A DNA stretch of 64,000 nt from Bradyrhizobium guangxiense (GTDB taxonomy: Bacteria > Pseudomonadota > Alphaproteobacteria > Rhizobiales > Xanthobacteraceae): positions 6,540,501 to 6,604,500 of the forward strand of contig NZ_CP022219.1 of the NCBI RefSeq assembly GCF_004114915.1. The letters are read 5' to 3'. A model generated the notes under the pieces. That model was given only the letters and a program-made list of their open reading frames with translations. It was not told the DNA's origin and made no database searches. Shown piece after piece: positions 55,456 to 60,680 of this stretch (position 1 is the first letter of the stretch; the number at the start of each line of letters is the position of its first letter). The position numbers and the translations under genes are program-made.

Positions 55456-55526
55456 GCGCGGCGCCTTCGGCAAGTTGCTGAGAGCTGCACACCTAGCCGA
55501 GGCCACGCACCGTCCGCTTGGACAGT

Positions 55527-55591
55527 GCTGCCAATCATGCGGCTGAAAACGAACCGCGCGTTGTCATGTGCTGCGCGTCACACCCGCGAGC
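55527..55591. repeat. Left copy of island-flanking direct repeat
   Basis: This 65-base segment is a near copy (same orientation) of 57443-57502. Both begin TGCTGCCAATCATGC, contain GAACCGCGCGTTGTCATGTG and end CGCGTCACACCCGCGAG; they differ by a few bases and small indels. In the right copy, the end of the repeat is the last codons of uppS. Confidence 0.85.
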
Positions 55592-55722
55592 TGATCAACG
55601 CCGCCTTCGCCGCGGCATTGAGGATGGCGTCGCGCGCGGAATGGTCGACCGCGATGCGCAGGTGCAGCGTGTCGCCGTCGGCGATCGCCTCCTCGGCGCG
55701 CGTGATCGCGCCTGCGGTGATG
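55575..55722 (-). pseudogene. Fragment of an isoprenyl transferase (uppS) gene
   Basis: The stretch pairs with parts of uppS. Its first 17 bases equal the uppS 3' end (CGCGTCACACCCGCGAG); then, after a deletion that would span 57503-57763 of uppS, it continues as a near copy of uppS 57764-57890 (for example GCATTGAGGATGGCGTCGCGCGCGGAAT). It is thus an internally deleted piece of a second uppS copy, too short to work. The sequence beyond it (55723-55819) matches nothing I can name. Confidence 0.8.
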
Positions 55723-57442: not shown

Positions 57443-57502
57443 TGCTGCCAATCATGCGCCGAAACGAACCGCGCGTTGTCATGTGCGCGTCACACCCGCG
57501 AG
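57443..57502. repeat. Right copy of island-flanking direct repeat (overlaps uppS 3' end)
   Basis: This 60-base segment matches 55527-55591. The last 13 bases (57490-57502) are the stop and final codons of uppS on the minus strand, so the element boundary is at a gene's 3' end. That is a common integration site for tyrosine-recombinase elements, although no integrase remains. Confidence 0.8.
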
Positions 57503-58227
57503 AGCGACGGCACCTCTTCGGGCAGGATCGCCTGAAGGCCGCCGAAACGGCGCTCGCGGCCGTGGAAAGAGGTCAGGGCGGCGGCGAGATCGCCCGCGTC
57601 GAACTCGGGCCACATCCGCTCGGTGAAGTGCAGCTCGGCATAGGCGCCTTCCCAGAGCAGGAAGTCCGACAGCCGCTTCTCGCCCGAGGTGCGGATGATG
57701 AGATCGACGTCGCGCAAGCCGGCTTCGCCGGTCACGAGCTGCGAAAAGGCTTCGCGGGTGATGCTGGTCAACGCGGCTGCCTTCGCCGCGGCATTGAGGA
57801 TGGCGTCGCGCGCGGAATAGTCCACCGCGATGCGCAGGTGCAGCGCGCCGCCGTCGGCGGTCGCCTCCTCGGCGCGTGTGATCGCGCCTGCAATACCCTC
57901 AGGCAGGCGGTCGCGACGTCCGATCACGGTGAGGCGCACGCCGTTCTTGACCAGGCTCTGCACCTCGCTCGCGAGATAGAAGCGCAGCAAGGTCATCAGT
58001 GCGGCGACCTCCGCCTTCGGCCTGCGCCAATTGTCGGTGGAGAAGGCGTAGAGCGTCAATGTACCGATGCCCTGCTTCGGCGCGGCCTCGACGACGCGGC
58101 GGATCGTCTCGACACCGGCCTCGTGGCCGCGCACGCGCGACAGGCCGCTGCGCGTCGCCCATCGTCCGTTGCCGTCCATGATGATGCCGACATGAAGCTT
58201 CTCGCTACAGGACATGTCACTTTGCAT
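57490..58227 (-). CDS. uppS: Isoprenyl (undecaprenyl/decaprenyl) diphosphate synthase
   Basis: The 245-residue cis-prenyltransferase makes the C50-C55 lipid carrier used for cell-wall and glycan assembly. Asp18 in IIMDGNGRWA is the Mg-binding catalytic Asp. The YAFSTDNWRRP loop, the helix motif ADGGALHLRIAVDYSARD, and the RTSGEKRLSDFLLW and AYAELHF signatures are all present. It is the third gene of an operon behind a membrane protein and a winged-helix regulator, 31 bp after the latter's stop. A 17-bp palindrome covers its start codon. The usual genomic place for the main uppS gene is with frr/cdsA/dxr, so this could be a second paralogue. Its 3' end coincides with the island repeat. Confidence 0.93.
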   Translation of the reverse strand: MQSDMSCSEKLHVGIIMDGNGRWATRSGLSRVRGHEAGVETIRRVVEAAPKQGIGTLTLYAFSTDNWRRPKAEVAALMTLLRFYLASEVQSLVKNGVRLTVIGRRDRLPEGIAGAITRAEEATADGGALHLRIAVDYSARDAILNAAAKAAALTSITREAFSQLVTGEAGLRDVDLIIRTSGEKRLSDFLLWEGAYAELHFTERMWPEFDAGDLAAALTSFHGRERRFGGLQAILPEEVPSLSRV

Positions 58228-58235
58228 TGCAAAGT
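58219..58235. promoter_or_regulatory. Palindrome ACTTTG-N5-CAAAGT over the uppS start codon
   Basis: A 17-bp palindrome, ACTTTGCA-T-TGCAAAGT in one reading, covers the uppS ATG (58225-58227). It matches the operator at 59293-59309 in arm sequence and spacing (ACTTTG-N5-CAAAGT). If bound by the winged-helix regulator it could block translation or an internal promoter of uppS. Confidence 0.6.
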
Positions 58236-58258
58236 CTCCGGTCAAAAAGGGGGGAGGA

Positions 58259-58636
58259 TCAGGTCGAGACGATGCCGAGGCGGCCGAGCGGCGGCGCCTC
58301 GCGCCCGGCGGCCTTGGCGGCGTCGCGCACCAGGCGTTCGAGCACGGCGAGATAATCGAGGAAACGGCGGCGCCCGGTCTTGGTGAGGCGGCAGGTGGTG
58401 TGCGGGCGGTTGCCCTCATAGCCCTTGATCACGTCGACGAGGCCGGCCTCCTGGAGCACGGCAAGGTGCCGGCTGAGATTGCCGTCGGTGAGGCCGCACA
58501 GCTGCTTGAGATCGGCGAATGCCAGCCCCTTGGGATGCGCCATCAGCGAGGTCAGTAACCCGAGCCTCGCCTTCTCGTGGATCACGCGGTCGAGCCCTTC
58601 GTAGGAGAAGGGCGCGCTGTCAGTCTTCGACATCAT
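58259..58636 (-). CDS. Winged-helix transcriptional regulator
   Basis: The 125-residue protein is a single MarR/ArsR-like winged helix. It shows HEKARLGLLTSLMAHPKGLAF, then the recognition helix LTDGNLSRHLAVLQEAGLVD and a wing with TTCRLTKTGRRRF. It lacks cysteine pairs typical of metal sensors, so I expect a small-ligand or lipid-intermediate response. It overlaps the preceding membrane-protein gene by 17 bases and lies 31 bp ahead of uppS, a compact operon. Two matching palindromes (59293-59309 and 58219-58235) in the same operon suggest direct autoregulation. ATG at 58636 versus 58633 cannot be decided. Confidence 0.85.
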   Translation of the reverse strand: MMSKTDSAPFSYEGLDRVIHEKARLGLLTSLMAHPKGLAFADLKQLCGLTDGNLSRHLAVLQEAGLVDVIKGYEGNRPHTTCRLTKTGRRRFLDYLAVLERLVRDAAKAAGREAPPLGRLGIVST

Positions 58637-59237
58637 GGTCTCCGGATGCGAAATGCAGAATGCCCGCCATCACGGACTGCCCGATCACGAAGGGCAGACC
58701 CATGGTCCATGGCGAAAGCGTGTGGGTCTGGCTCGCGAGCACCACCACCGCAAAGCCAGACACGAAATACCAGGCGCCGGCGAGCGCGACGGTGCGCGGC
58801 AGGGAGCGGACTGAGGCGAAGATGCCGAGCGACACCAGGATCTGCCACAGGCCCGGGAGCAGCCACAGCGCCTCGCCCGCGAACTTCCACATCACCACCG
58901 CGAGCAGCACGCCGGCAACGCCCGCCGGCAGGAACTGCTCGACCGCCTGGTGGATCATGACGTCGGCCAGACCCGAATGATGACGGCGCGATCGCGCGCG
59001 CATCTCGATCCCGATCATCAGGACGGAGAGCGCGGCAGCGACGAACCAGCCGACGAAGAAGCCGAGCGGCTCGCCGGGGGGATCGCCGAGCAGCCAGAAT
59101 TGCAGGACCGCGGTGAGCAGAGCGACCACGGCGGTCGCGGCCATCGTCGCCGTGCCATAACCGCGGAACGCGGTGCCGGCCGCGATCTGGCTGCGGATCG
59201 CCACGATGTCGGCCAGTGCCTTGTCGAGATCACGCAT
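58620..59237 (-). CDS. Integral membrane protein, first gene of uppS operon
   Basis: The 205-residue protein has a charged N-terminal helix (RDLDKALADIVAIRSQIAA) and about six hydrophobic segments; the C-terminus ends in acidic GDHDVED. There is no catalytic motif that I recognise. Pairing of such a protein with a small winged-helix regulator is a recurrent arrangement in bacteria, with the membrane partner often of unknown function. Its 3' end overlaps the regulator by 17 bases. The palindromic operator and -10 element lie 56-72 bp upstream of the ATG at 59237. A role in lipid-carrier or envelope homeostasis is inferred from uppS. Confidence 0.75.
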   Translation of the reverse strand: MRDLDKALADIVAIRSQIAAGTAFRGYGTATMAATAVVALLTAVLQFWLLGDPPGEPLGFFVGWFVAAALSVLMIGIEMRARSRRHHSGLADVMIHQAVEQFLPAGVAGVLLAVVMWKFAGEALWLLPGLWQILVSLGIFASVRSLPRTVALAGAWYFVSGFAVVVLASQTHTLSPWTMGLPFVIGQSVMAGILHFASGDHDVED

Positions 59238-59292
59238 TGGCAACGCCAAAACCTCGCTCCGCGCATGCCCGCCGGGATCGTCAATACCACGT

Positions 59293-59309
59293 ACTTTGTA
59301 CCGCAAAGT
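59293..59309. promoter_or_regulatory. Palindromic operator ACTTTG-N5-CAAAGT upstream of the operon
   Basis: ACTTTG (59293-59298), TACCG and CAAAGT (59304-59309) form the same palindrome class as at 58219-58235; with flanking bases the arms are TACTTTG/CAAAGTA. A third half-site CAAAGTA lies at 59321-59327, 17 bp further. It overlaps the predicted -10 on the minus strand. Confidence 0.7.
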
Positions 59310-59334
59310 ATATAGCGACACAAAGTAGACGCAA
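59307..59334 (-). promoter_or_regulatory. Predicted promoter of membrane protein-regulator-uppS operon
   Basis: On the minus strand TTGCGT (59329-59334) is 16 bases from TATACT (59307-59312), a fair -35 and good -10. The expected transcript start near 59300 lies inside the palindrome, so bound regulator would block it. The leader to the ATG at 59237 would be about 60 bases. Confidence 0.5.
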
Positions 59335-59438: not shown

Positions 59439-60680
59439 ATGTGGCTTAGATCATTCATCATCGCGTCCTTGTTGCAGGTAGTTGTCGCGGGAGTTGCGAA
59501 TGCGGCGGGACCGTTCGGCAGCGTCAATGTCGGCAACTGGATCGGCGGCGCCTTCAGCAATGACCAGACGGGCGCCTTCTCCCATTGTGCGGCGACAACT
59601 CCTTACGCAAACGGCGTCATCCTCGTCGTGAGCCAGAATGCCGCCGGCACCTGGTCGCTCGCTTTTGCAAGTCCCGGCTACCGCTTCAACAAGGGTGAGA
59701 ACGCCGCGATCGACGTCACCTTTGACGGGCAGGAGCAAGCCAGGCTGTACGCGACGGCGTACCAGTCCAACATGCTCACGGCCATCATGCCGCTCAATGT
59801 CGTGCGGACGTTTCAGAAGGCGAGTCTTATGGTGGCGACGGCCGGCCGCGCCGTTTTGAATTTCGATCTGACATCGACCGGGCCGGTCATCGCGGCCCTG
59901 GCCAATTGCGTGAGCAAGGTGAAAGCCGACGGGCTCGACAAGGCCGGCGATTTCACCAAGGGTACGGCCAAGCCGGCAGCCACGGCAGAGAAGCAGGCCG
60001 CGCCGCCGGCCGGCAAGTCCGCCAAGTCCAAGAGTGGCACCGGCTTCGTGGTCAGCGCCAATGGGCACGTCGTCACGAACCACCACGTGATCGACGGTTG
60101 CAGTGACCTCAAGGGCAATCTCACGGGCGAGGCCGCAACGGCGTTGCGCGTCGTATCGAGCGATGCAACCAACGATCTCGCCCTCTTGCAGGCGCCGTCG
60201 ACGGCGACGTTCAAGGAGTTTGCCCGGATCCGCGACCGCTCGATCCGCTCGGGCGATTCCGTCGTCGCGATCGGCTTTCCCTACCGCGGGCTACTGAGCT
60301 CGGACTTCACCGTGACCACCGGTATCGTGAGCTCGCTCAGTGGCATGCGCAACGATTCGCGTTTCCTGCAGATCAGTGCGCCTGTGCAGCCAGGCAACAG
60401 CGGAGGCCCGCTGTTCGATACCGCCGGTCAGATCGTCGGCGTGGTCACGGGAAAGCTCGACAATCTGCGGATCGCGGTCGCAACCGGCAACATCCCGGAG
60501 AACATCAATTTCGCCATCAAGACCGGGGCGCTGCGCGACTTTCTCGACAATTCCGTGGTGCCGTACCAGACCGCCGAGCCCAAGGGCGAGCTGAAGACCA
60601 CCGACATCGCCGCCAACGCCCGCGCCTACACGATGCTGATCTCATGTACCGGCACGGAACAGGCCGACGCGAAGCGGTGA
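59439..60680 (+). CDS. Secreted trypsin-like serine protease
   Basis: The 413-residue protein has a signal peptide (MWLRSFIIASLLQVVVAG, cleavage near ANA-AGPF). An N-terminal domain of about 140 residues with no motif I recognise follows, then a Ser/Ala/Lys-rich linker (170-200) and a trypsin-fold domain. The catalytic triad is His216 in VTNHHVIDG, Asp246 in TNDLALL and Ser321 in PGNSGGPLF. No PDZ domain follows, unlike DegP, so it is a DegS/HtrA-like or simple periplasmic protease without PDZ. The start at 59439 fits the signal peptide; the longer frame is not needed. It converges with the DUF3551 gene, 7 bp between stops. Confidence 0.9.
   Translation: MWLRSFIIASLLQVVVAGVANAAGPFGSVNVGNWIGGAFSNDQTGAFSHCAATTPYANGVILVVSQNAAGTWSLAFASPGYRFNKGENAAIDVTFDGQEQARLYATAYQSNMLTAIMPLNVVRTFQKASLMVATAGRAVLNFDLTSTGPVIAALANCVSKVKADGLDKAGDFTKGTAKPAATAEKQAAPPAGKSAKSKSGTGFVVSANGHVVTNHHVIDGCSDLKGNLTGEAATALRVVSSDATNDLALLQAPSTATFKEFARIRDRSIRSGDSVVAIGFPYRGLLSSDFTVTTGIVSSLSGMRNDSRFLQISAPVQPGNSGGPLFDTAGQIVGVVTGKLDNLRIAVATGNIPENINFAIKTGALRDFLDNSVVPYQTAEPKGELKTTDIAANARAYTMLISCTGTEQADAKR

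Follow-up and report, generated by a model that had tools for sequence, protein, structure and literature searches.

The window, which is the whole stretch of 64,000 nucleotides of Bradyrhizobium guangxiense DNA analysed here, carries a three-gene operon with two copies of the palindrome ACTTTG-N5-CAAAGT. We consider it likely that these palindromes are the operators of the operon's own HTH_34 regulator, which would repress the operon from site 1 and would place a uppS-specific block at site 2. Such a module is autoregulation of a known general kind, while the conserved operator at a start codon is unusual. Comparison of sequences strongly suggests a self-regulating membrane circuit, uncharacterised so far, that is conserved in many alphaproteobacteria.

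The operon and its two palindromes

The genes are arranged on the minus strand in the order mem, reg, uppS2 (Table 1). Profile and sequence searches gave no family match for mem in Pfam, NCBIfam or PDB sequences. Its predicted structure was a six-helix bundle (pLDDT 84.6, pTM 0.78), and no clear structural relative of the model was found among the chains compared. The best-matching named protein was from Bradyrhizobium nitroreducens (96% identity). The reg product scored 73.8 bits with HTH_34 (PF13601, cut-off 27, residues 24-103) and barely passed the general ArsR fold model PF01022 (27.3, cut-off 22). With the NCBIfam ArsR/SmtB metalloregulator model it reached 32.8 bits, below the cut-off of 55, and the PadR family was absent from its five Pfam matches (E 0.001). 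The sole sequence matched by reg in the PDB was 1ub9 (E 5.3e-7, residues 18-101), that is PH1061 of Pyrococcus horikoshii, labelled as a hypothetical protein; we know of no operator for PH1061. Within the HTH region of reg, LCGLTDGNLSRH was invariant across 12 aligned regulators.

By family models uppS2 is a UppS, or cis-prenyltransferase, a predicted enzyme (PF01255, 245.7 bits, cut-off 27; NF011412, 418.1 bits, cut-off 334). There was a single other PF01255 gene in the genome, at G000:C1:3530731, which was taken as the housekeeping uppS. The uppS that the preliminary description had placed in the operon is present there as one of two paralogues. At 55526-55715, 2.2 kb from uppS2 and separated from it by an acyltransferase gene, we observed two stretches, 89-91% identical to an internal segment of uppS2 and to its 3' end plus flanking sequence, which look like a degraded partial duplication of this gene. 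On the other side of the operon there was a divergent gene of a trypsin-like serine protease (59439-60680, plus strand), with its start about 130 bases from site 1. It was not a conserved neighbour in 34 loci, in a test of low sensitivity.

Table 1. Positions in the window of the genes, candidate operators and associated elements.
Feature	Position	Strand	Remarks
mem	58620..59237	-	six-helix membrane protein, 205 aa
reg	58259..58636	-	HTH_34 winged-helix regulator, 125 aa; start overlaps end of mem by 17 bases
uppS2	57490..58227	-	second cis-prenyltransferase (predicted), 245 aa, NF011412 subfamily
Operator site 1, ACTTTG-N5-CAAAGT	59293..59309		candidate; over the -10 box and probable start site
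Operator site 2, ACTTTG-N5-CAAAGT	58219..58235		candidate; uppS2 start codon at its centre
-35 box TTGCGT	59329..59334	-	assigned by conservation
Third half-site ACTTTG	59321..59326	-	between -35 and -10, 17 bases upstream of site 1
-10 box TATACT	59307..59312	-	shares three bases with site 1
T-tract	58244..58248	-	ends 8 bases before site 2
Ribosome-binding site GGAG of uppS2	58236..58239	-	directly before site 2

Both 17-bp palindromes were found where the preliminary description had located them, and the letters of the plus strand are ACTTTGCATTGCAAAGT at 58219-58235 and ACTTTGTACCGCAAAGT at 59293-59309. Its statement that the pair is beyond chance held as well. No further exact match was present in the genome (8,200,121 bases in two contigs), and the reversed control pattern gave 0. 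When up to two mismatches were allowed, the palindrome had 72 matches genome-wide and the control 70; therefore, only the exact or near-exact sites of the operon stand out.

Further, we collected related loci. Close orthologues of the regulator (identity of at least 67%) were detected in 16 of 199 genomes of the order and in 5 of 289 genomes of the class, where nine more had remote relatives only. Thirty of the 42 close regulator matches in the genus became loci. From the search of named genomes we used the best 80 of 411 regulator relatives, and these 80 include Methylobacterium, Rhodoplanes, Faunimonas, Antarcticirhabdus and several metagenome assemblies. The pool of 129 loci was reduced to 120 distinct ones by removing identical sequences. 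They are related to each other, 74 of them being Bradyrhizobium-like, and the counts given below are not independent events.

We regarded a site as kept when no more than 2 of the 12 arm positions were mismatched. Site 1 was kept in 117/120 loci and site 2 in 108/120, while the chance background in the same loci was 8 matches per 974,272 positions, which corresponds to approximately 0.2 loci expected for 200-base windows. The preliminary description had named a lack of conservation at orthologous operons as evidence against its reading, and these counts show the sites conserved there. Both sites were present in every locus at or above 86% regulator identity (74/74 for each). In the divergent loci (regulator identity 63-85%) the flanking bases were changed, and site 1 was kept in 43/46 and site 2 in 34/46. 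Site 1 was missing in L079, L115 and L118; L118 is cut there by the contig end, and L079 probably is too. The 12 loci in which site 2 was absent all fall below 86% identity, and they include four Methylobacterium and two Rhodoplanes records. Since the operon was kept in most of these 12, site 2 would not be needed for the circuit. We observed mem, at least in part, upstream of the regulator in 120/120 loci and uppS in 118/120. Three metagenome records with the operon (L114, L130, L131) bear the titles Candidatus Kuenenia and Candidatus Binataceae; they may be misbinned alphaproteobacterial contigs.

The most frequent spacers at both sites obeyed one rule, YRNYR, and the arm changes were of the same kind and of similar frequency at site 1 and site 2. 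The distance between the sites, 1025-1247 bases across loci, revealed no helical phasing.

Around site 1 we observed conserved promoter elements. The -10 position read TATACT in 77 of the 117 loci with site 1, TATGCT in 8 and TGTACT in 8, and TTG(C/A) began 24-25 bases upstream of site 1 in 110/117. As both elements are kept at fixed places, the promoter is conserved around site 1. On the minus strand the last three bases of TATACT are the first three of site 1, which bears out the earlier proposal that site 1 overlaps a predicted -10 box and start site. The third half-site was exact in 55 of the 74 loci whose regulators are at least 86% identical and in 58/117 overall. A site 1 that covers the -10 box and the probable start point implies that the operon is repressed as a whole by one of its own gene products.

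The start codon of uppS2 and the T-tract

The ATG of uppS2 (58227-58225) is the centre of site 2, in agreement with the overlap noted in the preliminary description. Over the 108 site-2 loci the consensus was GGAgACTTTG. The ATG was at the same position of the palindrome in 102/108 loci, and GTG or TTG was found in 3. Codon 2 of uppS was CAA in 104/108 loci and codon 3 was AGT in 87 and AGC in 18. For the 74 nearest loci, from which none was dropped, the respective numbers were 73 for CAA, 63 for AGT and 11 for AGC. The counts beyond these 74 come only from the 34/46 loci where the site-2 sequence was found and are partly circular. In the same genes overall, Gln is encoded by CAA in 15% of cases and Ser by AGT in 1.6%. 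This lock on CAA-AGT/AGC, set against such rare usage, points to selection on bases. As judged from codon usage, selection at site 2 is thus on bases and not on amino acids, and a protein-level reason cannot explain the codons.

Alternatively, site 2 might be an RNA hairpin that carries the uppS start codon in its loop and tunes translation, with site 1 as the only DNA operator. Three site-2 stretches indeed folded at -5.4 to -6.9 kcal/mol with the start codon at the loop. However, a change that breaks the outer pair (A-C) was similarly common at site 2 (18/108) and at site 1 (14/117), a compensating G-C outer pair occurred at neither site, and the identical sequence in the promoter requires a DNA-binding explanation anyway. 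The like arm changes at both sites and the missing compensation favour DNA recognition over an RNA stem, and we regard the hairpin as unlikely.

The preliminary description had further suggested that the internal operator could set uppS output separately. An operator within the operon stands; for the means, a roadblock or a block at the start codon is likelier, as an internal promoter was not seen. If site 2 controlled such a promoter, uppS would be transcribed on its own. In the window, site 2 is closely preceded by TTGACC, and in L077 and L078 a terminator-like hairpin with a T-run, the reg stop being at the edge of the loop, lies between reg and uppS, so that uppS would need a new start there. 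Against this, there was no conserved -10 downstream, where the sequence following site 2 is freely variable, and a start placed after a downstream -10 would fall within uppS. The sigma-70 promoter scan was silent at site 2, which is weak evidence, since it also missed the promoter at site 1. As no conserved promoter was seen around site 2, a block on uppS is likelier than a separate promoter, which we hold to be quite improbable.

Upstream of site 2 there is a T-tract. A run of at least five T within 30 bases upstream of the site was present in 86/108 loci, compared with approximately 1% of random places. In 83 of these 86 the tract (T5-8) ended exactly 8 bases before site 2, while the sequence of the 8 bases between them varied among loci. 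Below 86% regulator identity, the T-tract was found in 21 of 34 loci with site 2 and in 1 of 11 without it (Fisher p = 0.004, relatedness of the loci being ignored in this p value). We considered whether the tract is a usual ribosome-binding design and rejected this, as T5-N4-GGAG-N8-ATG occurred twice in the genome, here and at one other place. A general terminator was rejected too, with no clear enrichment of hairpins before the tract in divergent loci. Hairpins of -9.5 kcal/mol or lower were present in 7/21 divergent T-tract loci (33%) and in 21% of random 40-mers from the same loci; at a cut-off of -8 kcal/mol the values were 7/21 and 28%. Good-looking hairpins adjoin the T-tract in L077, L078, L069 and L073. 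The tract could enhance translation, bend the DNA as an A-tract, or serve as a pause site that works together with the bound regulator.

Linkage to the regulator

We compared 60 genomes of the genus, in which a close regulator orthologue was defined by E below 1e-60. There were 42 such copies in 40 genomes and none in the other 20. An exact palindrome was present at the operon in 38/40 genomes with an orthologue, the exceptions being G040 and G045, while 2/20 genomes without one had any exact match. The motif is therefore rare genome-wide and goes with the regulator, whereas a common motif without such linkage is what the preliminary description had named as evidence against its reading. Together with the conservation of the sites, this linkage lends support to the autoregulated circuit of membrane protein, regulator and uppS that it had proposed, as far as sequence comparison can. 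In one genome (G011:C16) two regulator copies and four exact palindromes were present on one contig, which is a duplicated operon or an assembly artefact.

An unrelated and more global regulator could bind the palindromes, the proximity of reg being incidental; reg is, after all, a putative binder only. Such a regulator would be expected to have other targets. However, the operon accounted for 67 of the 75 exact matches counted in these 60 genomes, and the 8 elsewhere were at the level of the control pattern (7). Exact matching in the genus thus reveals no regulon beyond the operon. In addition, 18/20 genomes without an orthologue had no exact site. This explanation seems to us very unlikely, slightly more so than the internal promoter. 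Chance or plain sequence relatedness, for which it speaks that one genus supplies most loci, can practically be dismissed, given the sites kept amid changed flanks in the divergent loci and the synonymous codon lock at site 2.

The NF011412 model was passed in 6/385 genomes of the class (G000, G021, G175, G403, G485, G518). All of them had a regulator orthologue, and each had a second match below the cut-off. From these genomes, which with n = 6 are few, the presence of this UppS subfamily appears linked to that of the regulator.

We also examined 29 loci with more distant relatives of the regulator and obtained a match in 27 (34-44% identity, within L083-L113). An open reading frame with at least two predicted membrane stretches ended just upstream of the regulator in 23/27. 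A palindrome of the form ACTYTR-N5-YARAGT was located in the zone 100-730 bases upstream of the regulator in 15/27, the distances being 130-720 bases, with a threshold (three mismatches at most, and 5 or 6 of 6 arm positions matching) that is loose and a sample that is small. Of the 18 such palindromes in the remote stretches read, 16 fall within this zone, and some are ACTCT/AGAGT variants. In L101, L107 and L108 the palindrome was 133-169 bases upstream, and a membrane open reading frame before the regulator was not found. Twelve of the 27 loci had no palindrome in the zone, including a second HTH_34 group within the genus (L098, L099, L110). We looked for uppS in ten remote loci (L083-L092) and found none. 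Apparently this type of operator is shared by a portion of the regulator family, and in one lineage uppS is its client.

Proposed circuit and known systems

We infer binding, repression, a roadblock and a sensing role of mem as follows. The regulator on site 1 would cover the -10 box and start site and repress its own operon (negative autoregulation). On site 2 it would cover the uppS start codon and impose a second block specific for uppS, most likely as a barrier that halts the elongating polymerase. For the membrane protein, the most likely role would be to sense the state of the envelope or of lipids and to lift repression, which would allow a dedicated spare UppS to be produced when needed.

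Internal operators are known to act as roadblocks for LacI, GalR and others, where the repressor is bound within the transcribed part of the operon. Compared with those, the putative operator described here encloses the start codon and adjoins the ribosome-binding site, an arrangement kept in 108/120 loci.

Signalling from mem to reg is suggested by the constant pairing and by analogy with two groups of PadR-type systems. The dyads of HAAS proteins with PadR-like winged-helix regulators were proposed as an alternative to two-component systems in which the partner signals to the regulator; in them, the gene of a small winged-helix regulator stands beside that of an often multi-transmembrane protein (PMC11237479). 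The operon shares this arrangement, as mem adjoins reg in 120/120 loci. Unlike in those dyads, the regulator here is of HTH_34 type without a PadR match. A Pfam search of 37 mem members at E 1 gave no HAAS/DUF1700 match. The second group consists of LstR and Lmo0599/LltR of Listeria, which mainly control their own operons, and these operons likewise hold transmembrane proteins or an FtsW/RodA cell-wall homologue (PMC6624303). These regulators are of PadR type and Gram-positive, which sets them apart from the present module, and the abstract of that paper does not mention an operator at a start codon. Considering the gene order and these analogies, mem may feed a membrane signal to reg. A literature search found no published description of this operon or motif, which is a weak negative, since many queries were empty.

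A bolder reading, which we put forward tentatively and hold to be rather doubtful, is that mem and HTH_34 form a widespread undescribed membrane-signalling pair with an operator family ACTYTR-N5-YARAGT, which in one lineage of alphaproteobacteria captured a dedicated UppS paralogue and controls it through a repressor-dependent terminator on the ribosome-binding site. The start-codon operator would stand at a fixed distance from a U-tract, the bound regulator would stall the polymerase near this tract, and the transcript would be shed. The absence of a clear hairpin enrichment before the T-tract counts against it.

In summary, specific candidates for operator, regulator and target are now at hand for a pair of membrane protein and HTH_34 regulator that is uncharacterised so far. 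As a design of gene control, the operator at the start codon with its T-tract at a constant distance can be put to the test. The supply of polyprenyl carrier bears on the synthesis of peptidoglycan, O-antigen and exopolysaccharide, and why some bacteria have two UppS enzymes is, to our knowledge, an open question. Our findings suggest that Bradyrhizobium, Methylobacterium and their relatives control a second polyprenyl-carrier synthase conditionally.
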